Shown one piece after another: positions 3,965-28,696 of a stretch of 46,079 nucleotides of DNA. Source of the stretch: Oscillospiraceae bacterium (GTDB lineage: Bacteria; Bacillota; Clostridia; Oscillospirales; Oscillospiraceae); the NCBI GenBank assembly GCA_902793285.1, contig CADBCV010000025.1, positions 1-46,079 on the forward strand, written 5' to 3'. The position numbers and the translations under genes were made by a program. Positions within the stretch are counted from its first letter, which is position 1. Each line of letters opens with the position of its first letter. Below the pieces are notes generated by a model, which was not told where the DNA came from, made no database searches, and saw only the letters and a program-made list of their open reading frames with translations.

Positions 3965-4753
3965 TTACCCGTAGGTGTGCAGGCCGTGCATGAAGGTGTT
4001 GACGCCGGCAAAGGTGAAGAACACCACCGGCACCGCGATCACGAGAAACCAGGCCATGGCGGTCCCCCTGCGCTTCATGCGCAGGCGCAGGTGCAGGTAC
4101 ACCGCGTAGATGATCCAGGTGATGAGGGCCCAGACCTCCTTGGGGTCCCAGGTCCAGAAGGCGGACCATGCCTGCTCGGCCCAGATGGCGCCGGAGAGGA
4201 TCACGACCGTGAGAAACAGAAAGCCGAAGGCCACAAGGCGATAGCTCAGATAGTCCATCTGGCGGAGGGCCCGCTCGTCCGCGCTCTGCTTCTTGACGGC
4301 CAGCAGATAGCGCAGGGAGATGCTGCCCGCGATGACGAAGGCGGAATAGCTCAAAACCGCCGAGCCGATGTGTACGCCGAACCAGGCGCTGCGCAGGGCG
4401 GGCATGAGGTCGCGGATCTCCATGGGCTGGAGGGCGGCATAGGTCATGACAAGAAGCGCCGCCGGCATCGCCACGACCGAGAGCCAGTCGGTTTTGAGCC
4501 GACCGCGCAAGACAATAAGCATCAGCGCCACGCCCCAGGCAAAGGCGTTGGCAAACTCAAACTGGTTCGACAGCGGCAGGCGCTTTGCCGCAATGCCGCG
4601 CACGATGAGGAAGACCGTGTGTACCGCGAAGGCCCCGAGAAACACAAACCAGGCGGATTTCAGCAGCTTGTCCTTCTTGAAAGCGGCGCCGGTAAATTCC
4701 AGAATGACGGCGATACCGTACAGCACAAAGGCGGCAAAGAAGATGAATTTCAT
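3965..4753 (-). CDS. ccsB: Cytochrome c biogenesis protein CcsB/ResC (heme handling)
   Basis: A 262-residue multi-spanning membrane protein of System II cytochrome c maturation. It handles and exports heme and, with ResB, attaches it to CXXCH motifs outside the cytoplasm. The tryptophan-rich WWD signature runs through 191-213 (WAEQAW, then FWTWDPKEVWALITW). Candidate heme-ligand histidines are H128, H221 and H256/H259 in the C-terminal MHGLH. Seven to eight hydrophobic segments are visible. It follows resB at 61 bp, and both follow nrfA, so its likely substrate is that multiheme enzyme. Confidence 0.93.
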   Translation of the reverse strand: MKFIFFAAFVLYGIAVILEFTGAAFKKDKLLKSAWFVFLGAFAVHTVFLIVRGIAAKRLPLSNQFEFANAFAWGVALMLIVLRGRLKTDWLSVVAMPAALLVMTYAALQPMEIRDLMPALRSAWFGVHIGSAVLSYSAFVIAGSISLRYLLAVKKQSADERALRQMDYLSYRLVAFGFLFLTVVILSGAIWAEQAWSAFWTWDPKEVWALITWIIYAVYLHLRLRMKRRGTAMAWFLVIAVPVVFFTFAGVNTFMHGLHTYG

Positions 4754-4814: not shown

Positions 4815-6050
4815 CTATACCTCAAACTCCCGAAATTCTTCGCCGAGCTCGACGCGCATGTGCTCCGGCTTCGGCCCCGCGACGGCATAGCCCTCGGAAT
4901 CGAGCTTTACAAGCACCGGCTCGCAGAAGAACGTGATATAGAGCCCCGCGATCATCAGCGTGAAGGCCGCCACCAGAAGGGCGTTCAAGAGCGGGGAGAC
5001 GTGCTTTATGCGGATGCCGGGGTACTCCACCGGGGCGTTGAAGGTAAAGCGCAGGTTCATGACCGTGAGCTCGTCCCCCGGCAGGGCCAGCGTGGGCGTA
5101 AAGACCCCGTCGGAGATCACCTGCACCTGGTAGATGGGGTTGGGGTAGCTGCCCTCGGTGATGGTGATGAGGGTGACGTTCCCGCTCGGGTCGCGGATAT
5201 AGTCGGGGTAGAGCGTGTCGTAGAGTATGCCGGTCACCCCGTCGGCGGAGAGATAGGTCTGCTCGGTCAGGAGAAAATCGTCCGTGCCGCCGGTCTCGAG
5301 GTTCGTGACCGTGACGGAGCCCGCCGTGCCGAAGGTCTGCTGGAAGAGCTTCCAGGGCCCGAAGGAGAAGGGGTGGTTGACCTTGAGTTCGGCAAGCTCG
5401 CTGCGCCGCCCGTCGGGGAGGGTAACCTGCACATGGCTCTGGTAGTCGAGCCGCCCCGTCTCGTCCGCGATGCGAAAGTCGCGGACGTGGATCTCGGTCC
5501 CGTCCTCCATGAAAATGGATTCGCCCGGCATACAGTCCCGGTCCACCACCGTCGGCGTGTAGAGGGCGAGGGCCCCGAAGACCACCGTCAGTAAAATCGA
5601 GAGGTGGGTGATGAAGCTGCCGCAGCGCCCGAAGCTGTGCTTGCGGTAGATCTCGACCTCGCCGATCCGCTCCCGCCGGCAGCGGCGGTCCGTGAGATAG
5701 GCGCGCAGCCGCTCGACCCCCTCGGGCGTGAGGCGCACGGCGTCGGGGAGCCCGGCCGCGCGCTCCGTCTCGCCCCGGGCCGCGCTCACGACCTTGCGGA
5801 TGCGCAGCAGCGAGCAGAGGCTGAGATTGAGGCACAGCAGCACGAGGAGCGCGATGAAGTACCAGCTTTCAAAGACGCGGTTCAGCCTTAGGAGCAGGAT
5901 CACGCCGTGGAAGGAGCGGTAGGTCTGCGCGTACCAGGCGACGGCGCGGCCCTGGGGGATCACGGTGCCCGCCACGGAGCAGAGCGCGATCAGCACCAGG
6001 AGCAAAATCCCGAAGCGCATGGAGCGCAGATAGTTGAACACTTTTTTCAT
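4815..6050 (-). CDS. resB: Cytochrome c biogenesis protein ResB
   Basis: About 411 residues, the Ccs1/ResB partner of CcsB in the heme-lyase complex of System II. N-terminal features are a MRFGILLLVLIALCSVAGT helix, the VIPQG motif that follows it, a second helix with WYFIALLVLLCLNLSLC, then a third near FITHLSILLTVVFGA. A large extracytoplasmic domain follows, and a last helix lies near VAAFTLMIAGLYITF. The second of two closely spaced Met codons (6050) is preferred: AAGGGG lies 8-9 nt upstream of it but only 2 nt from the first (6056). It precedes ccsB. An intrinsic terminator lies immediately upstream, so expression relative to nrfA is probably tuned. Confidence 0.92.
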   Translation of the reverse strand: MKKVFNYLRSMRFGILLLVLIALCSVAGTVIPQGRAVAWYAQTYRSFHGVILLLRLNRVFESWYFIALLVLLCLNLSLCSLLRIRKVVSAARGETERAAGLPDAVRLTPEGVERLRAYLTDRRCRRERIGEVEIYRKHSFGRCGSFITHLSILLTVVFGALALYTPTVVDRDCMPGESIFMEDGTEIHVRDFRIADETGRLDYQSHVQVTLPDGRRSELAELKVNHPFSFGPWKLFQQTFGTAGSVTVTNLETGGTDDFLLTEQTYLSADGVTGILYDTLYPDYIRDPSGNVTLITITEGSYPNPIYQVQVISDGVFTPTLALPGDELTVMNLRFTFNAPVEYPGIRIKHVSPLLNALLVAAFTLMIAGLYITFFCEPVLVKLDSEGYAVAGPKPEHMRVELGEEFREFEV

Positions 6051-6066
6051 GGGCATTTCCCCTTGT

Positions 6067-6104
6067 AAAAAAGCTGCCCGCCCTCTGGGGCGGGCAGCTT
6101 TTTT
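6067..6104 (-). terminator. Terminator between nrfA and resB
   Basis: GCTGCCCGCCC (6073-6083) pairs perfectly with GGGCGGGCAGC (6088-6098); read on -, six T residues follow. It lies 14 bp after the nrfA stop and about 15 bp before the resB ribosome site, leaving no room for a resB promoter between them. Confidence 0.88.
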
Positions 6105-6118: not shown

Positions 6119-7699
6119 TCAGCGGGTGAGGGCGAAGAGAAGCTGGGTGGCTTCCCCGCAGAGCGCGTCAGCCCTGTCGAGGCAGTCATAGGTGAGGGAC
6201 GGGTTGTGCACGCCCTCGGCATTCTCCACGAACACGAAGTCCCAATAGAACTGGCTGTCGCGGGCAAGCTGCCGGATCTCGGCCAGATCCTCGTCCGTGT
6301 ACTTGCCGCTCTCCACCGCCTGGGCCAGAAGCTCTGTCAGATACTCGAGCTCATAGCCGACCTCGTAGGTGCGGGTCTCCACCTTCTGCTGCACGCCGCG
6401 GACCTCAGACGCGAGATCCTTGTGGCAGACGGAGCAGGTGTTTTCCAGAAGGGCGGGGTTATCCAGCGGGCTTATGAGATTGTGGCTGTGGTAGGTGCTG
6501 CCGTCCGCCCTGGTCTCCACGGGCATGTGGCAGTCCGCGCAGGTGAAGGTGTTCGCATGGGGGCTCCCCGCGCCGAGGAAGGTCTCAAACTCGGGGTGCT
6601 GGACCTTGATCTGCTTGACGCCCGTGCGGGGGTTCGTCCAGTCGGCGAAGGGCTCCCCGTTCGGGAAGTTCGCGCCGTCGTTGAAGTAGGCCAGCATCGT
6701 CTCGGGCGCCATGGACGCAAGACTATTGTGGGCGATGGTGGTGGCCTTCGTGTCGGGGGCGAAGTAATACTCGTTGTGGCACTGGCCGCAGGCGAGGTTT
6801 GCCGGGGCGATCTTGTCAAAGTCATCGCCCACCGCGTCGATCCAGTAGGTGTGGGTCACGGTGATGGGGCCGGGGTTATTCGCGTGGCAGGTGTAGCAGG
6901 AGATGCCCTCCGTGATCTGGGCCTGCACCTCGCTCCAGTCTTTCTGGTAGGCGCTGATGCCCTCCTCGTTCACCATGTTGGTGAAGTCGGGGGTCTTGCA
7001 GGTCCAGCAGTTGGCGAGGGGGTGCGGGCGGCCGGTGGCCTCGATATCCTGCACGTCGTAATAGTGGCCGCGGGCAGCCTTGTAGTCCTTGGCAAAGCCG
7101 TAGCCCTCATACAGGGTGCGGAGCATGGGGTAGATTTCCAGATAGTCTTCCGCCTCGGAGCTCTCCCTGGTCATCATCCAGGAGTTGTACTGCTCGGGGA
7201 ACTGCTCTTTCCAGTCGGCGGCGTGCATCACGGTGACGCCGGACATGGTCTGCACCTTCATCGCGCCGCTGCCCTCGGAAGCGGGAGACGCGGGAGCGGC
7301 AGACGCAGCCGGTGCGGCGGGCTCTGCGGCCGCGCCCTGGTAGGCGGCGGGGTCGAAGCCCATGGACGTGAGGGCCTCGGCGACGGCGGTCTTGATGGCG
7401 GTACTCGTGACGGTCGCGCCGGAGATGCCGTCGACCTCGATGGAGTTTGCCTCGACCATCGCGCCGGGGAGCTTCTCGACGGCGACGGAGCCGATGCCCG
7501 GGGTCACATTGCCGTCGATACCCGTGCCGGTGCCGGTCGCGGTCTGCACCCCGTCCGCGGGCTCTGCGGCCGCACCCTGGTAGGCGGCGGGATCGAAGCC
7601 CATGGACGTGAGGGCCTCGGTGACGGCGGTCTTGATGGCGGTACTTGTGACGGTCGCGCCGGAGATGCCGTCGACCTCGATGGAGTTTGCCTCGACCAT
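6119..7699 (-). CDS. nrfA: Ammonia-forming cytochrome c nitrite reductase (NrfA), 3' part of a frameshifted fusion gene
   Basis: This frame encodes a pentaheme NrfA that reduces nitrite to ammonium outside the cytoplasm. Heme sites, N- to C-terminal: CWTCK at 6995-7009 (the Lys-ligated catalytic heme diagnostic of NrfA), then CYTCH 6884-6898, CGQCH 6776-6790, CADCH 6527-6541 and CSVCH 6422-6436. Upstream in the same frame are most of one FMN_bind-like repeat and all of a second, each with an SGAT flavinylation-type motif (7652-7663 and 7412-7423). The ATG at 7699 is inside a repeat and lacks a ribosome site, so it is not a credible start. The true start is 8295, and the frame is broken by 5 extra bases at 7746-7750. 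Removing them gives one 723-residue protein. No nrfH is adjacent. Confidence 0.9.
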   Translation of the reverse strand: MVEANSIEVDGISGATVTSTAIKTAVTEALTSMGFDPAAYQGAAAEPADGVQTATGTGTGIDGNVTPGIGSVAVEKLPGAMVEANSIEVDGISGATVTSTAIKTAVAEALTSMGFDPAAYQGAAAEPAAPAASAAPASPASEGSGAMKVQTMSGVTVMHAADWKEQFPEQYNSWMMTRESSEAEDYLEIYPMLRTLYEGYGFAKDYKAARGHYYDVQDIEATGRPHPLANCWTCKTPDFTNMVNEEGISAYQKDWSEVQAQITEGISCYTCHANNPGPITVTHTYWIDAVGDDFDKIAPANLACGQCHNEYYFAPDTKATTIAHNSLASMAPETMLAYFNDGANFPNGEPFADWTNPRTGVKQIKVQHPEFETFLGAGSPHANTFTCADCHMPVETRADGSTYHSHNLISPLDNPALLENTCSVCHKDLASEVRGVQQKVETRTYEVGYELEYLTELLAQAVESGKYTDEDLAEIRQLARDSQFYWDFVFVENAEGVHNPSLTYDCLDRADALCGEATQLLFALTR

Positions 7700-7805
7700 C
7701 GCGCCGGGGAGCTTCTCGACGGCGACGGAGCCGATGCCCGGGGTCCGACGACATCGCCGTCGATGCCGGTGCCGGTGCCGGTCGCGGTCTGCACCCCGTC
7801 CGCGG
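7321..7805 (-). repeat. 240-bp tandem repeat encoding FMN_bind-like modules
   Basis: Copies 7321-7560 and 7561-7805 differ at only a handful of positions, mostly within the first 90 bp; the 60 bases at 7441-7500 and 7681-7740 are identical. The only length difference is 5 bases (CGACG on +, 7746-7750) in the copy nearer the gene start. Each encodes an 80-residue module ending in DGISGATVTSTAIKTAV and a GFDPAAYQG tail. The high identity indicates a recent duplication. Confidence 0.92.
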
Positions 7806-8295
7806 GCTCGGCAGGGGCGGTCTCAGGCTTCGGCGTGGGCTCGGGTGTGGGCTCCGGCGTCGGGGCCGGGGTAGGCTCCACATAGCCGAAGTCCGCCGGG
7901 TTGAAGCCGGCCTCGGTGAGCGCCGCGCAGACGGCGGCCTTGATGGCCTCGCTCGTCACGGTGGCGCTGGAGATGCTGTCAACTGCGACCGAATTGGCCT
8001 CGACCATGGCGGCGGGGAGCTGCTCCACCGCGAGAGAGCCGATGCCCGGGGTCTCATTCTGCTCGAGGACCTTGACGGAATAGAGATTGCTCTTGTCGGC
8101 GGTGACCTCCACGACCACGTCGCCGACCTTGCCCGCGCCTGTACCGGTGGCGGTGACGGCCTCGCGGGACGCCTTGCGCATACCGGGATCGGGCAGCCTG
8201 CCGCTGATGGCGATGTTGACGACGAGAACGGCGACAAGGGCCAGGACCAGCAGCAGATCAAAGGGACTGAATCTTCTCTCCAGATTGCGTTTCAT
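7504..8295 (-). CDS. Membrane-anchored FMN_bind-like N-terminal part of the NrfA fusion (frameshifted)
   Basis: This is the true 5' end of the nrfA gene, with GGAGG upstream of the ATG and a good promoter at 8338-8366. Residues 1-11 are basic; about 12-32 form a hydrophobic anchor or uncleaved signal (LLLVLALVAVLVVNIAISG). Residues about 45-140 form a degenerate FMN_bind-like module, with SSAT in place of SGAT. A Pro/Thr/Glu linker of PTPEPTPEP type follows. The frame is correct to about 7750, after which the 5-nt insertion sends translation into about 85 unrelated residues ending at 7504. If the frame is corrected the protein continues through two more modules into NrfA. The deposited frame therefore yields a truncated membrane protein without hemes. 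Sequencing error, pseudogenisation and a reversible state cannot be told apart here. Confidence 0.8.
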   Translation of the reverse strand: MKRNLERRFSPFDLLLVLALVAVLVVNIAISGRLPDPGMRKASREAVTATGTGAGKVGDVVVEVTADKSNLYSVKVLEQNETPGIGSLAVEQLPAAMVEANSVAVDSISSATVTSEAIKAAVCAALTEAGFNPADFGYVEPTPAPTPEPTPEPTPKPETAPAEPADGVQTATGTGTGIDGDVVGPRASAPSPSRSSPARWSRQTPSRSTASPARPSQVPPSRPPSPRPSRPWASIPPPTRVRPQSPRTGCRPRPAPARVSTAM

Positions 8296-16262: not shown

Positions 16263-16431
16263 GACGGAAAAGAGCATCACCTGTGAGGGCTGCGGACAGG
16301 GCACAAAGCAGATCACGCTCTTCCCCACGCTTGTGCAGCGGGACCACCACATGGGGCGCTACTGCGTGCGCGGCTATGAAAGCTGCCCGCTCTACCGCTG
16401 CACCTATGCCTGCAAGTACGCCGACGCATGA
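16195..16431 (+). CDS. Cysteine-rich small phage protein
   Basis: A 78-residue protein starting MKTQRITWSEADVRCPFYI, with GGGGAGGAAAA upstream that decides this start over an in-frame codon at 16153. Eight cysteines, including CEGCGQG, CPLYRC and YACKY, suggest zinc binding, possibly a DNA-binding zinc finger. Such proteins are common just before terminase genes in Clostridia prophages, but their function is not established. It overlaps the next gene by 4 nt. Confidence 0.75.
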   Translation: MKTQRITWSEADVRCPFYIADNRTEKSITCEGCGQGTKQITLFPTLVQRDHHMGRYCVRGYESCPLYRCTYACKYADA

Positions 16432-16667
16432 GCGAGACGCGGGATAGCTCCCCGGAGGTCTCGGATCAGGAGGCGCTGCGGCGGGTCGGGCGGAAGCTCC
16501 TCGCCCGCATCGAGCGCTTTATCGACGAGGATGCGCTTGAGCTCAAGGAGCTCAAGACCGTGACCGGGGCGCTCAAGGAGCTGCAGGGTCTCTGGGAGGA
16601 GAAGGGCGGCGCGGATCGGGCGGTCACGGTCCTTTTCGAGGGGGAGACGGAGGAGATGAGCGTTTGA
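16428..16667 (+). CDS. Small helical phage protein, possible small terminase partner
   Basis: A 79-residue, mostly helical, acidic protein (RVGRKLLARIERFIDEDALE, LKELKTVTGALKELQGLW) ending in a short beta-like tail, TVLFEGETEEMSV. It is translationally coupled to the upstream gene through ATGA and sits 38 bp before the large terminase, where a small terminase subunit is often found. No helix-turn-helix is evident, so the TerS assignment is tentative. Confidence 0.65.
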   Translation: MSETRDSSPEVSDQEALRRVGRKLLARIERFIDEDALELKELKTVTGALKELQGLWEEKGGADRAVTVLFEGETEEMSV

Positions 16668-16705
16668 CAGTTCAAAATTTGGAGTGAGGAGTGTGGAGTT
16701 CAAGG

Positions 16706-18127
16706 ATGCCTGAGCTTTGTTTACCGAGGCCGAGCGAGAAGCAGAAGCTGTTCTTGCGGGATAAGCACAAGTACGTTGCCTACGGCGGCGCGCGGGGCGG
16801 CGGCAAAAGCTGGGCCGTGCGGGTGAAGGCGGTGCTCCTCTGTCTGCGCTACCCCGGGATCAAGGTCATGATCGTGCGAAAGACCTACCCTGAGCTCCAG
16901 GAGAACCACATCACGCCGCTGTGCGAAATGCTGGGCTGCTATCTCGACGGGGAGGAGCGCATCGCCATCTACAACGACGCAAAGAAAAACCTTAGCTTCC
17001 CCAACGGCAGCCGCATCCTCTTCCGCTATCTCGAGAACGACAAGGACGCCCTGCGCTTTCAGGGCACGGAGGTGGATGTCCTCTTCGTGGACGAGGCCAC
17101 CCAGCAGAGCGAGAGCCGGATGCAGAAGCTCAGGGCCTGCGTGCGCGGGGCGAACGATTTCCCGAAGCGCATCTATTTTACCTGCAACCCCGGCGGAGAG
17201 GGCCACGCCTGGGTCAAGCGCCTCTTTATCGACCGGCGCTTTCATGAGGGGGAGGAGCCGGAGGAGCACAGCTTCATCCAGGCCCTCGTCACCGACAACC
17301 GCGCCCTCATGGAGAAGGACCCGGACTATCTCAGACAGCTCGAGTCCCTGCCGGCCAAGCTGCGGGACGCCTGGCTCTGCGGCAACTGGGAGATCTTCGA
17401 GGGGCAGTTTTTTGAGGACTTCCGCCCCGAGCCCGATCTGAAGGCGGCGCGGGAGCACGGCTGCACCCTCTCGCGGGAGGAGCTGAAGGCCCAGGGGCGC
17501 TGGTGCCATGTGATCGCGCCCCTCGATCTCGCAAGCGGGCCGCGGCGGAGCTGGACCATTCTGAGAAGCTACGACTTCGGCTACGGCAAGCCCTTCTCCT
17601 GCGCGTGGTGGGCCGTGGACTATGAGGGGGTCTTGTACCGCGCCCTGGAGCTCTACGGCTGCACCGATACCCCGAACGAGGGCCTGCGCTGGACCCCGGA
17701 GCGCCAGTTTCAGGAGATCGCCCGCATCGAGCGGGAGCATCCCTGGCTCCGCGGCAAGCGCATCGAGGGCGTGGCGGACCCGGCCATCTGGGACGCGAGC
17801 CGGGGCGAGAGCGTGGCCGAGACCGCCGCGCGCTATGGGGTCTACTTCACCCCCGGGGACAACAAGCGCATCCCCGGCTGGATGCAGTGCCACTACCGCC
17901 TCCAGTTCGATGACGAGGGGCACAGCCGCATGTATGTCTTTGAAAACTGCCGGGCCTTCCTGCGCACGATCCCGCTCTTGCAGTTTTCACCGACGGAGCC
18001 GGAGGACCTGGACACCTCCCAGGAGGACCACGCGGCCGACGAGTGGCGCTATCTCTGCATGGCGCGGCCCATCGCGCCCTTCCGGCCGGTGGAGACGAAG
18101 GCACTGATGATCGACCCGCTGAAATGA
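16706..18127 (+). CDS. Phage terminase large subunit
   Basis: A 473-residue packaging motor. The N-terminal ATPase has Walker A GGARGGGKS (27-35), the VRKTYPELQEN adenine/coupling segment, and Walker B VDVLFVDEAT with D129/E130. The C-terminal RNase H-like nuclease shows acidic positions in RSYDFGYGKPFSCAWW, GVADPAIWD and HAADEWRYLC. The ATG at 16706 has GGAG 7 nt upstream; a GTG at 16691 is less likely. It cuts concatemeric DNA and pumps it through the portal encoded next. A 162-bp inserted repeat separates the two. Confidence 0.95.
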   Translation: MPELCLPRPSEKQKLFLRDKHKYVAYGGARGGGKSWAVRVKAVLLCLRYPGIKVMIVRKTYPELQENHITPLCEMLGCYLDGEERIAIYNDAKKNLSFPNGSRILFRYLENDKDALRFQGTEVDVLFVDEATQQSESRMQKLRACVRGANDFPKRIYFTCNPGGEGHAWVKRLFIDRRFHEGEEPEEHSFIQALVTDNRALMEKDPDYLRQLESLPAKLRDAWLCGNWEIFEGQFFEDFRPEPDLKAAREHGCTLSREELKAQGRWCHVIAPLDLASGPRRSWTILRSYDFGYGKPFSCAWWAVDYEGVLYRALELYGCTDTPNEGLRWTPERQFQEIARIEREHPWLRGKRIEGVADPAIWDASRGESVAETAARYGVYFTPGDNKRIPGWMQCHYRLQFDDEGHSRMYVFENCRAFLRTIPLLQFSPTEPEDLDTSQEDHAADEWRYLCMARPIAPFRPVETKALMIDPLK

Positions 18128-18132
18128 AAAAT

Positions 18133-18294
18133 GCCTTCCCCTTGAGGGGAAGGTCCACCAGTGCGCACACTGGTGGGGATGAGGTGGAGCTTCCCATCAC
18201 GGAGCGGTTTCGTGCAAGCGGTGAGCTTGACACCTCATCCGTCATCCGGCTCGCGGGAGATCGCCGGATGCCACCTTCCCCTCAAGGGGAAGGC
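18133..18294. mobile_element. 162-bp MITE-like element with 22-bp terminal inverted repeats
   Basis: The ends, 18133-18154 and 18273-18294, are perfect 22-bp inverted repeats; each is itself a small hairpin (CCTTCCCC...GGGGAAGG). A 6-bp direct repeat AAAAAT flanks it on both sides (18127-18132 and 18295-18300), as expected of a target-site duplication. It has no coding capacity, so mobility would need a transposase in trans. It lies between the terminase and portal genes. Confidence 0.85.
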
Positions 18295-18339
18295 AAAAAT
18301 GCCCGTCCATACAGCAAGAAACGGAGGTTTATAAAATCA

Positions 18340-20193
18340 ATGGAAAAAGAACTGACCCTGCCGGTAGACGAGCGGCGCCTTGCGGAGTTTACCCGTATCC
18401 TCCAGCGCTACAAGGCCGGCAAAGCGAGCATCGAGCGGCGCACCGTGGCGGCGGAAAACTGGTGGAAGCTCCGAAACACCGCCGAGGAGCGCAAATCCCA
18501 CGACCCGGGCGAGGGCTTCCAGGCCGTGTCCGGGTGGCTGCACAACGTCATCGTCTCCAAGCACGCCGACGCGATGGACGCCTACCCCGAGCCGAATATT
18601 CTGCCCCGCGAGCCGGACGACCGGCGCGAGGCCCGCGTCCTGTCCAAGATCCTGCCCGTCATCCTGGAGCAGAACGCCTTCGAGCAGACCTATTCCGACG
18701 GCATGTGGCAGAAGCTCAAAACCGGCACGGGCGTCTACCGCGTGGGCTGGGACACGGAGAAGGCGGGCGGCCTCGGCGACATCACCATCGAGCGCGCGGA
18801 CCTTTTAAACGTCTTCTGGGAGCCCGGCGTGCGCGACATCCAGGACAGCGCCTTCTTCTTCCACACACGGCTTGAGGACAACGAAAGGCTCATCGCCCAG
18901 TATCCGGAGCTTACGGGGAAGCTGAGGAGTCTCGGCTTTGCGCCGACGCGCTTTCTCTATGACGACAGCGTGCCCACCGACGGGAAGAGCACCGTCATCG
19001 ACGTCTACTATAAGCAGAGGCGCGGCGGGCGCGACGTGCTGCACTACTGCAAATATGTGGGGGACGTGCTCCTCTTCTCCACGGAGAACAGCGATTACCT
19101 GCGCGAGCAGGCCGGGGAGGGGGACTTTCCCCGCGGCCTCTATGACCACGGGCGCTATCCCTTCGTGTTCGACAGCCTCTTCCCCATTGAGGGCAGCCCC
19201 TGCGGCTACGGCTACATCGACCTCTGCCGCAACGCCCAGACCCAGATCGACATGCTCCAGACCGCCTTTCTCAAAAACACCATGGTGGGCGCGGTGCCGC
19301 GCTATTTCCAGCGGGCCGACGGCGCGGTGAACGAGGAGGAGTTTCTGAATCTCTCGAACCCCATCGTGCATGTGAGCGGCAATCTCGGCGAGGACAGCCT
19401 GCGTATCGTGGACTACCGCCCCCTGAGCGGGAACTATCTTGAGATGCGCGCGAGCGTCATCAACGAGCTTCGCGAGACCTCCGGCAACACGGAGACCTCC
19501 GTCGGTCTTGTGAACGCGGGCGTCACCGCGGCCTCCGCCATCGCCGCCCTCCAGGAGGCCAGCGGCAAGGGCAGCCGCGATTCCACGCGCGCAAGCTATC
19601 GTGCCTACGGGGAGATGATCGAGCTCTGCATCGAGCTCATCCGCCAGTTTTACGATCTGCCGCGCCAGTTTCGCATCACAGGCGGCCTGGGGCTCGAGCA
19701 GTTTGTGAGCTATGATAACGCCGGCCTCAGGCCCCAGCCGCTCTATGGGCCGGAGGGGATGGATCTCGGCCTGCGCCGCCCGGTGTTCGATATCCGGGTC
19801 ATCCCCCAGAAAAGCAGCGCCTACACCCGCATGAGCCAGAACGAGCTGGCATTGCAGTTTTACCAGCTCGGTTTCTTCTCCGCCGAGCGGAGCGACCAGG
19901 CCCTCGCCTGCATGAGCATGATGGACTTTGAGGGCAGGGACGAGCTCATGCAGCAGCTCTTCTACAACGGGAACCTGCAAAAGCAGCTCTCGCTCTACCA
20001 GCAGTACGCCCTCGCCCTCACGCAGAAGTACGAGCCGGAGCGGGCCGAGGCACTGATGGCGGGCATCACGGGCCATGCGCCCAGGGAGGCAAGGCGTGCG
20101 GCAAAGCCCAAACGCGGCGCACGCGAGGCCGCCCACATGGAGAGAGCCCGGGCCCACGCCGCGAACGCGGCGCAGCCGGGAGGCGGACAATGA
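18340..20193 (+). CDS. Phage portal protein (P22/podovirus type)
   Basis: A 617-residue portal, the size of large podoviral portals. Features are the N-terminal helical region with WWKLRNTAEERKSH, TGTGVYRVGWD in the clip/wing area, LNVFWEPGVRDIQDSAFF, and SPCGYGYIDLCRNAQTQID followed by a long helix. The last ~50 residues are rich in Arg, Ala and Lys. GGAGG lies 12 nt upstream of the ATG, beyond the MITE; the in-frame extension back to 18043 runs through the MITE and is not coding. It forms the dodecameric DNA channel and connector. It overlaps the protease gene by 4 nt. Confidence 0.9.
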   Translation: MEKELTLPVDERRLAEFTRILQRYKAGKASIERRTVAAENWWKLRNTAEERKSHDPGEGFQAVSGWLHNVIVSKHADAMDAYPEPNILPREPDDRREARVLSKILPVILEQNAFEQTYSDGMWQKLKTGTGVYRVGWDTEKAGGLGDITIERADLLNVFWEPGVRDIQDSAFFFHTRLEDNERLIAQYPELTGKLRSLGFAPTRFLYDDSVPTDGKSTVIDVYYKQRRGGRDVLHYCKYVGDVLLFSTENSDYLREQAGEGDFPRGLYDHGRYPFVFDSLFPIEGSPCGYGYIDLCRNAQTQIDMLQTAFLKNTMVGAVPRYFQRADGAVNEEEFLNLSNPIVHVSGNLGEDSLRIVDYRPLSGNYLEMRASVINELRETSGNTETSVGLVNAGVTAASAIAALQEASGKGSRDSTRASYRAYGEMIELCIELIRQFYDLPRQFRITGGLGLEQFVSYDNAGLRPQPLYGPEGMDLGLRRPVFDIRVIPQKSSAYTRMSQNELALQFYQLGFFSAERSDQALACMSMMDFEGRDELMQQLFYNGNLQKQLSLYQQYALALTQKYEPERAEALMAGITGHAPREARRAAKPKRGAREAAHMERARAHAANAAQPGGGQ

Positions 20194-20531
20194 CCGCCGT
20201 GCGCTATGACAGGGAGGGGCTGCGCCTCGAGATGGAGGGCCACGCCGGGGCCGGAGAATTCGGCCGGGATCTCGTGTGCGCGGCGCTCAGTATGCTGATG
20301 ATGACGCTCGAGCGGCGCATGGAGGAGCGGGCGGAGCGCACCCTGCCGCAGATCCGCCGCGCGCCGGGCAGCTTTATGATCCGCTGCCGGCCGGAGCGGG
20401 AGGATGAGGCCCTCTGCCGCGAGAGCTTTGACACGGTGGCCGCGGGGCTTGCGCTGCTCGCGGAGAACTGCGGCGGCTGCGTGTCGTTCTATCTGGAGGG
20501 AAATGATTTGGAAGAGGAGATGGATGCATGA
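20190..20531 (+). CDS. Prp-family cysteine protease, probable prohead maturation protease
   Basis: A 113-residue protein carrying the Prp signature: EGHAGAGEFGRDLVCAALS with His18 and Cys30 at the same spacing as the catalytic pair of staphylococcal Prp, which trims ribosomal protein L27 and cleaves phage 80alpha capsid and scaffold. A Prp gene inside a head-assembly operon, between portal and scaffold, points to capsid maturation. The major capsid protein begins MKFDLQHFADAG, containing the LQ[FH]FA recognition sequence of Prp enzymes. It is coupled by 4-nt overlaps to both neighbours. The family call is firm; the substrate is an inference. Confidence 0.85.
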   Translation: MTAVRYDREGLRLEMEGHAGAGEFGRDLVCAALSMLMMTLERRMEERAERTLPQIRRAPGSFMIRCRPEREDEALCRESFDTVAAGLALLAENCGGCVSFYLEGNDLEEEMDA

Positions 20532-21313
20532 GCGAAAACCAGGAGAGAAGAAGATCCGCCTATGCCGACACCATGGAGGCCCTGCGCGAGGCGGAGTACG
20601 CCCTGCCGGATTTCACCTCCGACTTTGACGCCGAGATCGCGGGGCTCTATGAGAAGATCGTGAACAGGCCGGCCTTCCGCTATGACCCGGGCGCGGACCC
20701 TTTGTATGAGAGCTACCGCACCCGGATGGTCACGGAGGGGGAGCGCGCCATGCGCGACAGCGTGGGGCAGGCCGCCTCCCTCACGGGGGGCTACGGCTCA
20801 AGCTATGCCGAGAGCGTCGGCCAGGCGCAGTACGGCCTCTACCTCCAAAAGCTGGGGGAGGCCATGCCGGAGCTCTACAAGGCGGCCTATGAGCGCTACC
20901 GCGACGATGAGGACGCCCTCTACCGAAAGCTCAGCGCGGCACAGGGCCTTGCCGAGAGCGCATACAGCCGCGAAAGCCAGCGCTACACCCAGGCCGCCCA
21001 GCTTGAGCAGCAGCAGTATGAGCGGCGCGAGAAGAGCTACCAGAAGCTCGTGAATCTCATCAGCCAGGCGGGCTACGACCCGGCGGATGAGGAGCTTGCC
21101 CGCGCGGGCCTGACCCGCGCCCAGGCGGAGGCGCTGCGGCAGGATTTCCTGCGCAAAAACCCGCTGGCGGCCGCGGGCGGCTATACCGGCGGCAACAGCA
21201 GCTATACCGCGAAGAGCGCCGCCAGCACGAGCAAGCCCGGCGAGAAGGAGGCAGTCAAGCTCGCCGCCAATCAGCCCGGCAGCGCAAACACCGCCAAGAA
21301 GCGGAGGCTGTAA
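20528..21313 (+). CDS. Phage structural/accessory protein of unknown function
   Basis: 261 residues with a conserved-looking core RDSVGQAASLTGGYGSSYAES, seen in phage virion-associated proteins, flanked by long helices rich in Gln, Glu and Tyr (about 95-180). The tail is low-complexity Ala/Lys/Ser, ending KKRRL. It lies between the protease and scaffold genes and is coupled to the protease by ATGA. It may be an internal or ejection protein, but there is no direct evidence. I do not recognise a catalytic motif. Confidence 0.7.
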   Translation: MSENQERRRSAYADTMEALREAEYALPDFTSDFDAEIAGLYEKIVNRPAFRYDPGADPLYESYRTRMVTEGERAMRDSVGQAASLTGGYGSSYAESVGQAQYGLYLQKLGEAMPELYKAAYERYRDDEDALYRKLSAAQGLAESAYSRESQRYTQAAQLEQQQYERREKSYQKLVNLISQAGYDPADEELARAGLTRAQAEALRQDFLRKNPLAAAGGYTGGNSSYTAKSAASTSKPGEKEAVKLAANQPGSANTAKKRRL

Positions 21314-21366
21314 AGAAGCCCTTTCCCGGCAAACGCCGGTTCCCCGCTGCAGAGGGGATAGAGTCA

Positions 21367-21387
21367 ATTGCAAATCTTGTTTGCAAT
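21367..21387. repeat. Hairpin upstream of the scaffold gene
   Basis: ATTGCAAA (21367-21374) pairs perfectly with TTTGCAAT (21380-21387). It lies 5 bp before the scaffold ribosome site. It resembles the CATTGCGAA/TTCGCAATG hairpin at 3421-3445, so it may be a repeat fragment; it could affect scaffold translation. Confidence 0.5.
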
Positions 21388-21404
21388 CAACGGAAGGAGA
21401 AAGC

Positions 21405-22136
21405 ATGGAAGACATGGAAACCAGAAAACCGGCAGAGGAGCCGGAGACGGGCGATAAAGAGACTGCGCCTCCTGGCGCGGAGCCTGCCGACGCCGGGCAG
21501 GAGGAGAAGAGCGCGCGCCTGAGCTGGGAGGAGATCCTGCAAGACCCTGTGTACAAAAAAAGCTATGACGCGGCGGTGCAGAGCGTCGTAAAGGCGCGGC
21601 TTCGCGGCAGGGCCGACGCCGAGGAGAGGCTTGCGCGCCTTGCCCCGGTGCTCACGGCGCTCACGGAGGTCTACGGCATGACGGAGGAGACGGACACCGC
21701 CGCCCTCGCCGAGGCGCTGCGGGAGAGCGTGCCGCGGCGCCGACCGGGAGCGGAGGAGATCGGGCAGCACCTCAAGGCGCTCTTGGCCGAGGCGGAGAGC
21801 CTGCGGGACACGGTGCCGGACTTTGACCTGCTGCGGGAGCTGGAGGACCCGGCGCTCCTGCGCATGACCGCGCCGGGAAGCGGCATCTCCCTCGCGGACG
21901 CCTACTACGCACGGCACCGCCGAGAGCGCGAGGAGGCCGCCGCGCGGCGCAGTCTCGAGGCCGTGAGCCGGAGCCTGCAGACACGCGGCGGGCGGCCCCG
22001 GGAGCTCCGGGAGACCACCCCGGGCGCGCGCTTTTCCCAGAACCCCGCCGCCATGACCAGACAGGAGCGCGAGGCGCTCAAAAAGCGCATCCTCGAGGCG
22101 AGAGCCGAGGGGAGAAGCCTCAGACCGGGGGAATGA
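21405..22136 (+). CDS. Probable phage scaffolding protein
   Basis: 243 residues, highly charged and almost entirely helical: an acidic, Pro-rich N-terminus, long Glu/Ala/Arg helices (about 45-175), then a basic, Arg-rich C-terminus (RETTPGARFSQNPAAMTRQE, about 210-230). This composition, and its position directly before the major capsid gene, are typical of scaffolds. No LQxFA Prp cleavage motif is visible in it, unlike the capsid protein. GGAAGGAGA upstream decides the ATG at 21405 over an in-frame codon at 21381. Confidence 0.8.
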   Translation: MEDMETRKPAEEPETGDKETAPPGAEPADAGQEEKSARLSWEEILQDPVYKKSYDAAVQSVVKARLRGRADAEERLARLAPVLTALTEVYGMTEETDTAALAEALRESVPRRRPGAEEIGQHLKALLAEAESLRDTVPDFDLLRELEDPALLRMTAPGSGISLADAYYARHRREREEAAARRSLEAVSRSLQTRGGRPRELRETTPGARFSQNPAAMTRQEREALKKRILEARAEGRSLRPGE

Positions 22137-22140
22137 ACCC

Positions 22141-22210
22141 GTAGGGGCCGATGCCTTCATCGGCCCGCTGTACGATATCCGATACGGGTCGATCTGGGAT
22201 CGACCCCTAC
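22141..22210. repeat. 70-bp repeat with GTAGGGG/CCCCTAC ends
   Basis: Terminal inverted repeats GTAGGGG (22141-22147) and CCCCTAC (22204-22210) enclose two more hairpins (CCGATG/CATCGG and GTCGAT/ATCGAC). It is non-coding and starts four bases after the scaffold stop codon. It is the first of three unrelated repeats stacked before the capsid gene. Confidence 0.75.
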
Positions 22211-22234
22211 TGGATGTTATCAACTAAAACTTCA

Positions 22235-22299
22235 TGTCATTCTGAGGAGCGAAGCGACGAAGAATCCCGTAGACAACCGGGGGATCCTTCGCTTGCGCG
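22235..22299. repeat. Truncated copy of the TGTCATTCTGAG repeat
   Basis: Matches the left half and centre of the element at 13554-13636 (TGTCATTCTGAGGAGC, GACGAAGAATCCCGT, GATCCTTCGCT) but lacks the right inverted end. It shows that a chromosomal repeat family has entered the prophage. Confidence 0.75.
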
Positions 22300-22357
22300 A
22301 ACATTAGAGATAAGCTACTACGATCAGCACCCACGGAGAGGACCAAATAGGAAAGGA

Positions 22358-22402
22358 CTCCCTCAGTCAGCCGATGGCTGACAGCTCCCTCGGAGAGGGA
22401 GC
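22358..22402. repeat. Two-hairpin repeat before the capsid gene
   Basis: GTCAGCC/GGCTGAC (22366-22382) followed by GCTCCCTC/GAGGGAGC (22384-22402). Same family as 27-84. It ends 23 bp before the capsid start and could protect the 5' end of a processed capsid mRNA. Confidence 0.75.
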
Positions 22403-22424
22403 CAAAATGGAAAGGATGATTTGA

Positions 22425-23489
22425 ATGAAATTTGACCTTCAGCATTTTGCGGACGCCGGGACCCTTGTCAACGCCACCGGCAGCTTTGTCAACGCTTCGA
22501 CCGGCGACACCACCGCCTTTGACAGCGCCCACAGCCTCTCGGCGGAGCTCAAGGCCTTCTACGACACGGAGCTTCTGGAAAACGCCAGGGCCGAGCTTTA
22601 CTATGCCCAGTTCGGCAAGCGCCAGCCCCTGCCCAAGAACCACCACGGCAGCGTGGAGTGGCGCAAGTGGAACACCTTCGACAAGGCATCCAGGCTCACC
22701 GAGGGCGTGATCCCCACCGGGCAGAAATTCGGCGTCACCGCCGTGACCGGCAGCGTCGATCAGTACGGCACCTACACCGCCATCACCGACAAGCTGGAGC
22801 TGCGCGCCTATGACGATGTGATCCTCGGCGCGACCGAGGAGATGGGCGCCTCCGCCGCCGAGACCCAGGAGGCCCTGATCCGCGACGCCCTCTACACCAA
22901 CACGAACGTGCTCTACTGCGACAAGATCACGAGAGCCACCGGCGCCGTCGCCGCGACGCCCACCCAGCAGAGCGGCCTTGCCGAGGACGCCACCTATCAC
23001 TGCCACCTCACCCCCGAGATGGTCAACAAGGCCGTCACCGTGATGAAGAAAAACCGCGTGCCCCGCATCGGCGGCAAGTACTACGCGGTGATCCACCCCT
23101 CCGTCGCCCACGATCTGCGCGCCGACGAGAGCTGGATCGAGGCGCACAAGTACGCCTCCCCCGAGGAGATCTACAACGGCGAGATCGGCGAGCTGCACGG
23201 CGTGCGCTTCATCGAGAATGTCTTCGCCCCCGTCATTAAGGGTGAAAACGACACCATCGCCGTCTACGCGACCTACTTCTTCGGCAAGGACTCCTTCGGC
23301 ATCATCGACCCCGAGGGCGGCGCGCTGGAGATGATCATCCACGACAAGGGCGAGATCGGCGGCCCCCTCAACCAGTTCTCGACCATCGGCTACAAGTTCG
23401 AGACCAACGGCGCCACCGTCCTCTACCCCGAGCGCCTGCTGCGCGTCATGAGCACGAGCTCCTTCTCGGGCACCGATGTCGCAAATTAA
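22425..23489 (+). CDS. N4-gp56-type major capsid protein
   Basis: A 354-residue HK97-fold-type capsid protein of the N4-gp56 family, recognised from the N-terminus MKFDLQHFADAG, the MPLPKNHHGSVEWRKW-like segment (LPKNHHGSVEWRKW, about 67-80), VTGSVDQYGTYTAITD, and the C-terminal KGEIGGPLNQFSTIGYKF. The first nine residues contain LQHFA, the sequence cleaved by Prp proteases in L27 and in phage 80alpha proteins; cleavage after Ala9 is predicted. It is preceded by 288 bp of stacked repeats instead of the tight spacing seen elsewhere in the operon. Confidence 0.9.
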   Translation: MKFDLQHFADAGTLVNATGSFVNASTGDTTAFDSAHSLSAELKAFYDTELLENARAELYYAQFGKRQPLPKNHHGSVEWRKWNTFDKASRLTEGVIPTGQKFGVTAVTGSVDQYGTYTAITDKLELRAYDDVILGATEEMGASAAETQEALIRDALYTNTNVLYCDKITRATGAVAATPTQQSGLAEDATYHCHLTPEMVNKAVTVMKKNRVPRIGGKYYAVIHPSVAHDLRADESWIEAHKYASPEEIYNGEIGELHGVRFIENVFAPVIKGENDTIAVYATYFFGKDSFGIIDPEGGALEMIIHDKGEIGGPLNQFSTIGYKFETNGATVLYPERLLRVMSTSSFSGTDVAN

Positions 23490-23502
23490 GGGAGGGAAAA
23501 CG

Positions 23503-23712
23503 ATGGAAGAGAAAAGAGTCGAGGTCTTTATCCCCCGCGGCGCGGACCGCGAGGACCCCAATTTCTTCGTGGGGCTCAACGGCGTCAATTACCTCCTGCC
23601 CCGCGGCAAGAAGTCCATGGTGCCGAAGGCGGTGGCCGCCGAGATCGCGCGGAGCGAGCTTGCCGCCGACCGCTTCTATGAGAGCGTGGACGGCCTGAGA
23701 CAGAGCGTGTGA
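23503..23712 (+). CDS. Small phage head-region protein
   Basis: 69 residues starting MEEKRVEVFIPRG, with GGGAGGG upstream deciding this start over the one at 23476. The segment DPNFFVGLNGVNYLLPRGK followed by a short helix (VAAEIARSELAADRFYE) is a pattern found immediately after capsid genes in Clostridia podoviruses. Probably a minor head or completion protein; function not established. Confidence 0.75.
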   Translation: MEEKRVEVFIPRGADREDPNFFVGLNGVNYLLPRGKKSMVPKAVAAEIARSELAADRFYESVDGLRQSV

Positions 23713-23724
23713 TCGCAGGGGGGA

Positions 23725-23769
23725 GGGAGGCGCAGAGCCTCCCTTCCCCGGACTCCCTCGGAGAGGGAG
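23725..23769. repeat. Paired hairpins after the head gene
   Basis: GGGAGGC/GCCTCCC (23725-23743) and CTCCCTC/GAGGGAG (23753-23769). The second matches the hairpin at 22384-22402. Non-coding spacer between two late genes. Confidence 0.6.
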
Positions 23770-23799
23770 CCTATAAGGATGGTGATTTGAATAAAAGCA

Positions 23800-24156
23800 A
23801 TGGACATGATCGAGCGGCTGGATCTTCTGGAGCCGAACGACTATTCGCCCGAACAGAAGCTGCGCTGGCTCTCGGAGCTCGACGGGAAGCTCTATCTCGA
23901 GGTGGTCAAAACCCACGAGAGCGCCTTTGCCCCCTATCCGCCCCGCTATGAGAGCGGCGAGGAGGAGCTCCTCGTGTCGGAGCCCTACGGCGAGAGTCTC
24001 TACTACCACTATCTCCAGGCCATGGTCGCCGCGGAGAACGGGGAGAACCAGCGCTACAACCGGCGCATGACGCTCTTCAACAGCGCCCTTGCCGACTGGA
24101 CCAACTGGGTCAACCGCAGCCGCCGCCCGTGCGCGCGCGGGGCCTTCCGCTTCTGA
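23800..24156 (+). CDS. Putative head-tail connector protein
   Basis: 118 residues, mainly helical. It begins MDMIERLDLLEPNDYSPEQK and ends in a helix, FNSALADWTNWVNR, plus a basic tail. Its size and place between the capsid genes and the tail protein fit a podoviral adaptor docking under the portal, like P22 gp4, though no catalytic residues are apparent. A start two codons later (23806) is equally possible. Confidence 0.6.
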   Translation: MDMIERLDLLEPNDYSPEQKLRWLSELDGKLYLEVVKTHESAFAPYPPRYESGEEELLVSEPYGESLYYHYLQAMVAAENGENQRYNRRMTLFNSALADWTNWVNRSRRPCARGAFRF

Positions 24157-24169
24157 GGGGAGGGAGAGC

Positions 24170-25918
24170 ATGGGACAACTGCCAAGGCTCGCCTATGAGT
24201 ATGACGAGCGCGTCGTGACGGATGTCTTCGCGGGCTACCGCCGCAAGGCCAGAATCGGCGACGGGGAGTTTTACAATACCCGCAATCTCACAAGCGCGGG
24301 CTACCCGCTGCTCACAAACCGGCGCAAAAGAGGACACGTGCGCACCCTGCGCGCGCCGGGGGGCCTGCTCGCCAAAGAAAAGCTCGCCTTCGTGGAGGAC
24401 GGGGCGCTCTGGTACGACGGGGAGAGGACGCCCCTCACGGCGCTCACGCCCGGGAGAAAGCAGCTTGTGAGCATGGGGGCCGCCATCGTGGTGTTCCCCG
24501 ACAGGCTGTACTACAACACCGCAAACCCCACGGATTTCGGGAGCCTCGAGGCTGCCTACAGTTCCGCCGGGAATGTGGAATACGCCCTCTGTCGGGAGGA
24601 CGGCACCCCCTATCCCGCGCCGACCGTCTCCGACACCGCGCCCGCCGAGCCCGCGGACGGCGCGCTCTGGATCGACAGCGCGAAGAGCGTCCATGTGCTC
24701 CGGCAGTGGAACGCGGCGCTTACGCAGTGGGCTGAGATCCCAACGGTCTTCACCCGCCTGCGCTTCATCTCCGAGGGGGAGATCCCCGCCCTGTTCCGGA
24801 AATACGACGGCGTCACGCTCACCGGCACGGCGGCCGCCATGGACGGCGCGCATGTGCTCCGGGCCGTCGGCGGCGGGGAGGGCGAACGGGACTGGATCGT
24901 GGTGGCGGGCCTTCTCGAGGAGAACATGACCCAGACGGAGGGCTCCGTGAAGCTCGAGCGGCGCGTGCCGGAGATGGACTTTGTCATCGAGTGCAAAAAC
25001 CGGCTCTGGGGCTGCCGTTACGGGGCGGACGGGGAGAAAACCCTGAACGAGATCTACTGCTGCGCGCTCGGCGATTTCAAAAACTGGCGGCAGTACATGG
25101 GTCTCAGCACCGATTCCTGGACGGCCTCCGTCGGTTCTGACGGGCCATGGACCGGGGCGGTGAGCTATCTCGGCTGCCCGATGTTTTTCAAGGAAAACCG
25201 CATCCACCGCATCACCGTCTCCCCGACGGGCGCACACCAGCTCACGGAGACCGTCTGCCGCGGTGTGCAGGAGGGCTGCGCCGGAAGCCTGCAGGTGGTG
25301 AACGAGACGCTGCTCTACAAAAGCCGCGCCGACATCTGCGCCTATCAGGGCAGCTTTCCCGAGAGCATCAGCGACGCCCTCGGCGAGGAGCGCTACAGCG
25401 AGGCTTCCGCCGGGGTCCTGGGCGAGCGCTACTACATCTCCATGAAGAGCGCGGCCGGGGACTGGAGCCTTTTCGTCTATGACATCCGGCGCAATCTCTG
25501 GATGCGGGAGGACGAGCTGCACGCCCTCGGCTTTGCCTCTCTGGGCGACGAGCTCTACTGCGAGACGGAAAACGCCCTGCTTGCCCTGAACGGCACGGTG
25601 GGGACAAAGGAGCCCTATGTCGCCTGGGAGGCGGAGACGGGGCTGCTCTCCTACGAGGCCCCGGACCGGAAGTACGTCTCCCGCTACAATCTCAGGCTCT
25701 CCATGGAGGAGGGGGCCCAGCTCGACGTCTATCTCGAGTACGACTCCAGCGGCGAGTGGGTGCGCCAGGGCAGGGTCCGCATGAAGGGGACGAGGACGGT
25801 CACGCTGCCCGTGAGACCCCGGCGCTGCGACCACCTGCGCATGAAGCTCCGGGGTCGGGGCGATATGCGCCTCTACTCCGTGGCGAAAATTCTGACGATG
25901 GGAAGTGATGTGGGATGA
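24170..25918 (+). CDS. Large tail protein (probable podoviral tail hub or nozzle)
   Basis: 582 residues, rich in beta strands with many repeated Trp/Tyr-Gly turns (for example GAALWYDGERTPL-like blocks near 83-90, ALWIDSAKSVHVLRQWN, KNRLWGCRYGADG, FFKENRIHRITVSPTGAH). This pattern suggests a beta-propeller-like tail hub such as P22 gp10. It is preceded by GGGGAGGGAG and follows the connector gene by 13 bp. It overlaps the next small gene by 4 nt. Assignment rests on size, composition and gene order, not on a diagnostic motif. Confidence 0.65.
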   Translation: MGQLPRLAYEYDERVVTDVFAGYRRKARIGDGEFYNTRNLTSAGYPLLTNRRKRGHVRTLRAPGGLLAKEKLAFVEDGALWYDGERTPLTALTPGRKQLVSMGAAIVVFPDRLYYNTANPTDFGSLEAAYSSAGNVEYALCREDGTPYPAPTVSDTAPAEPADGALWIDSAKSVHVLRQWNAALTQWAEIPTVFTRLRFISEGEIPALFRKYDGVTLTGTAAAMDGAHVLRAVGGGEGERDWIVVAGLLEENMTQTEGSVKLERRVPEMDFVIECKNRLWGCRYGADGEKTLNEIYCCALGDFKNWRQYMGLSTDSWTASVGSDGPWTGAVSYLGCPMFFKENRIHRITVSPTGAHQLTETVCRGVQEGCAGSLQVVNETLLYKSRADICAYQGSFPESISDALGEERYSEASAGVLGERYYISMKSAAGDWSLFVYDIRRNLWMREDELHALGFASLGDELYCETENALLALNGTVGTKEPYVAWEAETGLLSYEAPDRKYVSRYNLRLSMEEGAQLDVYLEYDSSGEWVRQGRVRMKGTRTVTLPVRPRRCDHLRMKLRGRGDMRLYSVAKILTMGSDVG

Positions 25919-27256: not shown

Positions 27257-27260
27257 AGCT

Positions 27261-28243: not shown

Positions 28244-28253
28244 GAGGGAAAGT

Positions 28254-28694: not shown

Positions 28695-28696
28695 AG

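Follow-up and report, generated by a model that had tools for sequence, protein, structure and literature searches.

How does a nitrite reductase obtain its electrons where none of its usual partners is found? NrfA is a key enzyme of nitrite ammonification, for which NrfH and NrfB are the well-known electron donors. The question is raised by a 46,079-nt stretch of DNA from an Oscillospiraceae bacterium (GenBank assembly GCA_902793285.1, contig CADBCV010000025.1, positions 1 to 46,079; hereafter the window), in which an NrfA domain is encoded together with a membrane anchor and with FMN_bind domains, i.e., domains that can carry flavin mononucleotide (FMN). A preliminary description had read the locus as one gene with a 5-nt insertion, encoding an anchor helix, three FMN_bind modules, and a pentaheme NrfA, and had proposed a self-contained wire from membrane flavins to the nitrite-reducing heme. 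We find that the fusion is real, and that it is probably a membrane-anchored flavinylated nitrite reductase, in which FMN attached by ApbE and most likely fed by the Rnf complex would pass electrons to the NrfA hemes.

An anchor, FMN_bind modules, and NrfA at one locus

In the assembly, the anchor, FMN_bind, and NrfA parts lie on the minus strand at 8295–6119, on two overlapping open reading frames (ORFs) in different frames and not, as first described, on one gene. The features of this region are as follows.

7504–8295, minus strand: ORF 1, 263 amino acids (aa) as listed, with the anchor, module 1, a Pro-rich linker, and the start of module 2
8197–8265, minus strand: predicted membrane helix, residues 11 to 33 (AlphaFold model and sequence)
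7918–8133, minus strand: FMN_bind module 1, complete, Pfam positions 1 to 76 (Pfam; fold match to 8P2B)
7960–7971, minus strand: SSAT motif of module 1 (sequence, alignment)
7798–7884, minus strand: Pro/Thr-rich linker (sequence)
7317–7809, minus strand: two 240-bp tandem repeats, 95% matches, corresponding to modules 2 and 3 (Tandem Repeats Finder, blastn)
7610–7744, minus strand: module 2 with SGAT motif, frame broken near 7745–7750 (Pfam, blastn)
7370–7507, minus strand: module 3 with SGAT motif, frame kept (Pfam, blastn)
6119–7699, minus strand: ORF 2, 526 aa from the first ATG (7699), with the rest of modules 2 and 3 and NrfA
6140–7219, minus strand: pentaheme NrfA domain, PF02335 (Pfam)
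6995–7009, minus strand: CWTCK, the Lys-type heme motif (sequence)

ORF 1 shares the frame of the gene up to about 7750 and is out of frame beyond, and a GGAGG stretch resembling a ribosome site lies just 5′ of its start at 8295. A separate start for the NrfA half at the ATG at 7699 was considered and rejected, as this ATG has no evident ribosome site.

The NrfA half is recognized by PF02335 (Cytochrom_C552) with 255 bits against a gathering threshold of 24.1 (E = 1.8e-75) and carries five heme motifs, namely CWTCK and four CxxCH, which bears out the pentaheme, Lys-type NrfA of the preliminary description. The single frame break lies outside this domain, which is 92% identical to that of an intact relative (L058; relatives' loci carry L numbers, genomes G numbers, and contigs C numbers). 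Since its scores lie below the equivalog/exception cut-offs of two NCBIfam models (NF008339, 219.5 versus 595 bits; TIGR03152, 179.8 versus 692.5 bits), it is not an equivalog of these models. For a structure prediction, we took the intact relative L032 (AlphaFold2, 31-row alignment; mean predicted local distance difference test score, pLDDT, 83.6; predicted template modeling score, pTM, 0.80). In Foldseek, the NrfA part of this model matched E. coli NrfA (1GU6, E = 2.7e-18, target-normalized TM-score, TMt, 0.72) as well as the Wolinella and Desulfovibrio enzymes, and a QHPE stretch of L032 aligned with the QHPE stretch of chain 2VR0. Based on sequence and predicted fold, the domain is a predicted nitrite-to-ammonium enzyme.

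The FMN_bind family (PF04205) matches both ORFs, with 52.1 bits in 8295–7504 (cut-off 22, E = 1e-13) and in two stretches of 7699–6119 (E = 2.7e-12). The check on fold that the preliminary description had called for came out in its favor for module 1: A model of this module with its helix (147 aa, pLDDT 84.2) matches the flavinylated structure 8P2B (TMt 0.87, E = 2.3e-5). Likewise, the FMN_bind part of L032 matches CbFMN4 domain 1 in 8P2B (Foldseek: E = 1.6e-3, TMt 0.89, root mean square deviation 1.5), with RnfG and NqrC chains ranking lower among its fold matches. In 8P2B, FMN is covalently bound on a Thr, according to passages of PMC10339131. The motifs of the window are those first reported, SSAT in module 1 and SGAT in modules 2 and 3, the attachment motif sought being DxxxGAT. 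Module 1 thus has Ser in place of the usual Gly of xGAT, and L072, the nearest relative that shares this N-terminus, has ASAT. On ORFs with NrfA, the xGAT Thr is kept in all 61 FMN_bind domains (46 SGAT, 12 TGAT, 2 GGAT, and 1 AGAT), a count that leaves out three duplicate loci and does not cover the first modules of the window and L072, which lie on ORFs without NrfA. A chance match of the 80-residue modules was rejected, as Pfam, fold, and conservation all identify FMN_bind. The window protein does not reach the rnfG model (27.5 and 28.3 bits, cut-off 102). A gene for ApbE, which the preliminary description had suggested looking for, occurs once in the window's own genome (248.9 bits, contig C8), and ApbE is found in 94 of the 102 genomes of the genus.

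The fusion is conserved in Oscillospiraceae

How widespread is this architecture? Using an alignment made from four intact fusions as query, we scanned genome contigs, kept the best 80 of 422 relatives, and classified all 80, a set that its query biases toward fusions. N-terminal FMN_bind on NrfA, which the preliminary description had proposed to search for in the family, turned up at 54 of the 80 loci in all forms, 48 with one domain (including the broken L072 and the RnfG-type L080) and 6 with two; three FMN_bind modules on one NrfA ORF were seen at none of the 80. The remaining 26 have no FMN_bind on the NrfA ORF, two of these (L082 and L101) being cut by contig ends. The simpler plan of anchor, one FMN_bind domain, and NrfA forms an unbroken ORF in dozens of relatives, and an N-terminal hydrophobic segment is present in 85 of 86 NrfA ORFs, fused and unfused taken together. 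In a family sample free of the fusion bias (400 genomes searched with PF02335 alone), NrfA occurs in 31 genomes. It is fused in 14 of these, counting the window's own; in 8, an nrfA without FMN_bind comes immediately after rnf genes; 7 have neither fusion nor rnf upstream, with an FMN_bind ORF on the downstream side of ccsB in one of them (G719, L212); and 2 are cut by contig ends.

The neighborhood is conserved as well. In the window, nrfA, resB, and ccsB follow one another on one strand with gaps of 62 and 61 nt. Of the 80 kept loci, 75 have resB and 73 have ccsB.

4815–6056, minus strand: resB, System II cytochrome c maturation (PF05140, E = 1.6e-36)
3965–4753, minus strand: ccsB, System II cytochrome c maturation (CcsB model, ResC-type; TIGR03144, 225.6 bits, cut-off 187.6)

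Some variants of the fusion deserve mention. The window's genome (G000) has on contig C34 (20880–21290; L021 6878–7291) an orphan anchor–FMN_bind protein of 138 aa that shares 92% identity with the N-terminal part of the intact fusion L114/L058. Its flanking DNA on either side corresponds to that of L058 but contains no NrfA part, which would fit a split of the fusion that left NrfA at the resB–ccsB locus. By eye, the FMN-less NrfA of L127, L134, and L137 has an apparent cleavable signal peptide, and in the genus search, open frames with matches resembling FMN_bind reach 1797 aa (G195).

Rnf genes lie beside or within nrfA in relatives

Where would a fused flavin obtain its electrons? The neighborhoods of relatives point to the Rnf complex, and we observed three arrangements. 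In the first, rnfC-D-G-E-A-B stands immediately before an nrfA that lacks FMN_bind and encodes a hydrophobic N-terminus, and resB-ccsB come next; these rnf–nrfA operons are L030, L031, L099, L103 (cut), L196, L197, L198, L201, L202, L204 (cut), L205, L208, and L209. At L107, on a contig shared with L199, rnfCDGEAB-tatA-tatC-nrfA-resB-ccsB form one run, in which Tat (twin-arginine translocation) genes adjoin a cytochrome expected to use Sec. In the second arrangement, RnfG itself is fused to NrfA. L075 and L093 (133.7 and 127.2 bits) exceed the TIGR01947 cut-off of 102, the fusion at L080 stays below it with 89.8 bits (the free RnfG of L107 scores 101.6), and L087, L091, L092, and L097 share the plan as judged by an own profile. 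Directly behind the RnfG–NrfA gene, L087, L091, L092, L093, and L097 have a second nrfA without FMN; because each kind groups separately (supports 94 and 98), this duplication looks older than the split of the five loci. The third arrangement is apbE-tatA-tatC-nrfA-resB-ccsB (L104, L105, L106, and L109). Last, at L195 (G157:C70, 4174–7143, minus strand), a single 990-aa ORF behind rnf genes joins helix, FMN_bind, FAD_binding_2, and NrfA.

We also built a tree from 103 NrfA domains of the family and 6 outgroup rows; 79 of the 103 have a flavin link (50 FMN-fused, 7 RnfG-fused, 13 in an rnf operon, 5 beside an RnfG–NrfA gene, and 4 of the apbE–tat type) and 1 is cut. These labels require 14 changes on the tree, compared to a mean of 54.5 after shuffling; it is a quick tree with several long branches, a joined-long-branch warning, and 19 of 105 inner branches open. 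It leaves out the duplicates L027, L028, L029, L199, L200, L203, and L210, the partial L101 and L103, the genus loci L113–L141, and two cut genes of G107 and G874. Across the genus, rnfC scores over its cut-off in 99 of the 102 genomes and gives some match in all 102; the same model also hits 12 of 14 control genomes, in 4 cases over the cut-off. Because the neighborhoods of relatives point to Rnf as donor, the protein looks like a module plugged into a shared membrane flavin hub rather than the self-contained wire of the preliminary description.

Other FMN_bind proteins are encoded in G000. Contigs C6, C18, C23, and C33 have reductases with FMN_bind and FAD_binding_2 (Pfam), those of C6 (Pfam) and C18 (by eye) with Tat-like leaders, and these reductases may share a membrane donor with NrfA. 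On C4, an FMN_bind protein with a Tat-like leader is seemingly split over two ORFs.

NrfH is not found, and quinone synthesis looks patchy

The absence of nrfH, which the preliminary description had proposed to check, is seen throughout the genus: PF03264 gave no match in the window's genome and none in the 102 genus genomes, and we therefore rejected an NrfH encoded elsewhere in the genome. Small multiheme ORFs on the NrfA strand were looked for at 106 family loci, duplicates included; just one turned up, and it is a truncated NrfA, at L101. As a control, we took 29 NrfA loci outside the family (phylum search, 398 genomes) with 1.5 kb on each side. Here, a tetraheme ORF resembling NrfH accompanies nrfA at 17 of the 29 loci, and an FMN_bind ORF lies within 1.5 kb at none. 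In the phylum-wide search, no NrfA match from outside the family, among the matches listed, extended into the FMN part.

Of the genes for quinone synthesis, we found no menD in the window's genome, and in the genus 2 of 102 genomes over the cut-off and 9 of 102 with any match; PF02621, a family of the futalosine route to menaquinone, was likewise absent from the window's genome. As this genome is 79.5% complete, single absences in it weigh little and the genus counts weigh more. Judged from menD and PF02621 alone, quinone synthesis in the genus looks patchy at best.

Modules 2 and 3 are shortened copies in the assembly

Are there three flavin modules, as first described? Module 1 is complete; modules 2 and 3 cover only Pfam positions 29–76 and 28–76. 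Our reference was the corresponding module on contig C33 of the same genome, where an intact flavo-reductase of 645 aa combines FMN_bind with FAD_binding_2. At the DNA level, identity to this module is 94.9% (177 nt) and 92.7% (191 nt) for the 3′ parts of modules 2 and 3, against 88.7% (53 nt) and 85.4% (48 nt) for the short 5′ parts. Between the 5′ and 3′ parts, module 2 lacks 58 nt, which breaks the frame, and module 3 lacks 63 nt (21 codons), which preserves it. The insertion of the preliminary description thus stands as a real 5-nt difference between the 240-bp repeats, namely 63 minus 58, with both repeats being shortened relative to C33. The missing piece approximately codes for strands 2 and 3 of the domain (strands judged from the model of module 1). 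The window locus should therefore not be taken as three working flavin modules, since two of them, as assembled, miss most of two of the three strands.

The sequences suggest that the losses are possibly an assembly gap, which we rate likelier than true decay because the genome contains three nearly identical copies of the module, two in these repeats and one on C33. That the gene in the window's species is truly broken, as a pseudogene or a split gene with truncated modules 2 and 3, and that only relatives make a working enzyme, is rather unlikely in our judgment. The frame break and the truncated modules are what such a gene would show, and L072, with ResB and CcsB 85% and 89% identical to the window's, is broken in its extra module too, at a different point (~41 nt net missing from a neighboring, partly overlapping stretch, placed by eye). 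Against this, the NrfA part is otherwise unbroken, with its heme motifs and its similarity to L058 intact, and both lesions sit at one place of the thrice-repeated module, where short-read assembly would easily fail.

Proposed electron path and its alternatives

We propose that ApbE would attach FMN to the xGAT Thr of the fused domain, outside the membrane. With Rnf as the most likely donor, electrons would run from reduced ferredoxin through RnfB, RnfA/E, and the RnfG flavin to the fused FMN, and from there to the NrfA hemes, where nitrite would be reduced to ammonium. The fused domain would take the role of NrfH, a quinol dehydrogenase, or of NrfB as electron entry, the helix that of NrfH as anchor, and ResB–CcsB would mature the NrfA hemes.

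Several observations weigh against this proposal. The window gene is split, and its module 1 has SSAT and not xGAT. In the window's genome, rnf lies on another contig (C14) and apbE on C8, and Rnf would be the donor there by extension from relatives. Eight of the 102 genus genomes have no ApbE match, at least four of which have a fused NrfA (G184, G203, G217, and G220); these are possibly incomplete bins. No flavin link is nearby in 23 of the 103 NrfA rows of the tree, some of which (e.g., L083, L100, and L102) have little upstream sequence. Quinones are possible, as 23 of the 102 genus genomes have PF02621 matches, all over the cut-off, with low scores (19 to 39 bits) and many of them partial. 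The lack of a nearby nrfH is not special by itself, as 12 of the 29 control loci have no NrfH-like ORF within 1.5 kb either.

Which other readings do these data allow? A flavinylated FMN domain could feed NrfA from a donor other than Rnf, such as a NapH-like, MsrQ-like, or DUF4405-like protein or a flavin reductase driven by reduced nicotinamide adenine dinucleotide (NADH). Many membrane donors serve flavinylated domains (passages of PMC8238504 and PMC11334425), and rnf is not near nrfA in the window's genome; we nevertheless hold this to be unlikely, as Rnf was the only such donor that turned up next to nrfA or in fusion with it at the loci inspected, where other donors were not searched for. 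Alternatively, the FMN domain may be a mere tether or not flavinylated, with electrons arriving from quinol or a soluble cytochrome as in NrfHA or NrfB. The hydrophobic N-terminal segment, present with or without an FMN domain, would make anchoring independent of that domain, and the PF02621 matches leave room for quinol. The invariant xGAT Thr, the genus counts for nrfH and menD, and the near-absence of small multiheme ORFs speak against this reading, which we regard as quite improbable. Mis-assembly of the whole fusion, for which one could cite a repeat-rich contig of a metagenome-assembled genome (MAG), has a negligible chance of being correct and is refuted by the many unbroken copies in MAGs of many species and, by their titles, from several projects.

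Other features of the window

6078–6097, minus strand: terminator-like hairpin separating nrfA from resB, within their 62-nt gap (site scan; near chance)

The terminator and promoter scan was uninformative, with counts near the shuffled ones (4 terminator-like sites versus 3.5 expected). From about 16400 to 32500, a run of plus-strand ORFs resembles a prophage, with terminase-like and lysozyme-like protein starts among them (by eye).

Relation to known systems

With NrfHA and NrfAB, the fusion shares a pentaheme NrfA with a CxxCK heme and the common fold of the E. coli, Wolinella, and Desulfovibrio enzymes. It differs in that no NrfH or NrfB was found and that a helix and FMN_bind sit on the same chain as anchor and proposed electron entry. 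Rnf also works with a multiheme cytochrome in a methanogen, one that is reportedly neither a nitrite reductase nor fused to a flavin domain. That system, cited as Holmes et al. 2019 in passages of PMC8238504, resembles ours in that Rnf electrons go outward to hemes.

The closest published precedent, as far as the consulted passages of Meheust et al. 2021 (PMC8238504) extend, is a group of multi-flavinylated RnfGs with a multiheme cytochrome domain in Christensenellales, for which a branched, second outward Rnf path was proposed. They likewise join the Rnf flavin subunit to a multiheme domain; the heme domain is not named there as NrfA or a nitrite reductase, whereas our cases come, by record titles, from Oscillospiraceae and mostly have a short FMN_bind, not RnfG. 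Passages of the same paper also deal with flavinylated reductases, with NapH-like clusters whose nitrite reductase is defined by NirS, and with FMN_bind fumarate-reductase-like enzymes (e.g., Listeria FrdA). The latter are also extracytosolic reductases plugged in via a fused FMN_bind, but their catalytic part is FAD_binding_2, in contrast to the pentaheme cytochrome here; L195 has all three on one chain. CbFMN4 and SaFMN3 share the covalent FMN on the Thr of DxxxGAT and the domain fold (8P2B), but the word "cytochrome" is absent from the main text of PMC10339131, while our fusion has a cytochrome domain.

By word search, "NrfA" is absent from the main text of PMC8238504, and "nitrite" from that of PMC11334425 (2024). 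The available text of the NrfA reviews PMC12285233 and PMC8840924 has neither "FMN" nor "Rnf", with one historical remark on "flavin" in the latter; that of an nrfA genome survey (PMC10716430, where "Rnf" was not searched) lacks "FMN," "fusion," "fused," and "nrfH"; and that of a gut nitrite reductase study (PMC12998184) lacks "Rnf" and "FMN." NrfH appears as NrfA donor in passages of PMC12285233 and PMC12780646, the latter predicting that the cytochrome-bearing acetogen Sporomusa ovata uses NrfH1A1. Among the literature matches listed, in a search that most subscription papers lie outside of, there was no report of an FMN_bind–NrfA fusion or an rnf–nrfA operon. Within the texts covered, flavinylated reductase fusions are already known, and NrfA as the catalytic partner and the links to Rnf were not found in print.

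Implications for gut and rumen bacteria

A broader proposal, which we make tentatively, is that in quinone-poor Oscillospiraceae the Rnf complex may act as a ferredoxin:nitrite oxidoreductase and not just as a maker of NADH. RnfG or fused flavins would then feed NrfA, allowing nitrite respiration without quinones, NrfH, or NrfB, and ions may still be pumped at Rnf. Several events of exchange, fusion, and duplication of the flavin module would have taken place within this one family, the extreme being one polypeptide that joins the anchor and the flavin domain to an FAD reductase and NrfA.

Rumen or gut sites are named in the record titles of many of the 80 kept loci, and we take RUG names to denote rumen MAGs. 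If true, a flavin-fed, apparently quinone-independent NrfA in these bacteria would be a third donor type, and the energy conservation of Rnf would be linked to nitrite, with a bearing on nitrite removal and hydrogen use in ruminants. The NrfA fusions make the question of the other acceptors of Rnf directly testable with one recombinant protein. Overall, the fusion suggests an unstudied, quinone-free electron feed to nitrite in one family of gut and rumen bacteria.

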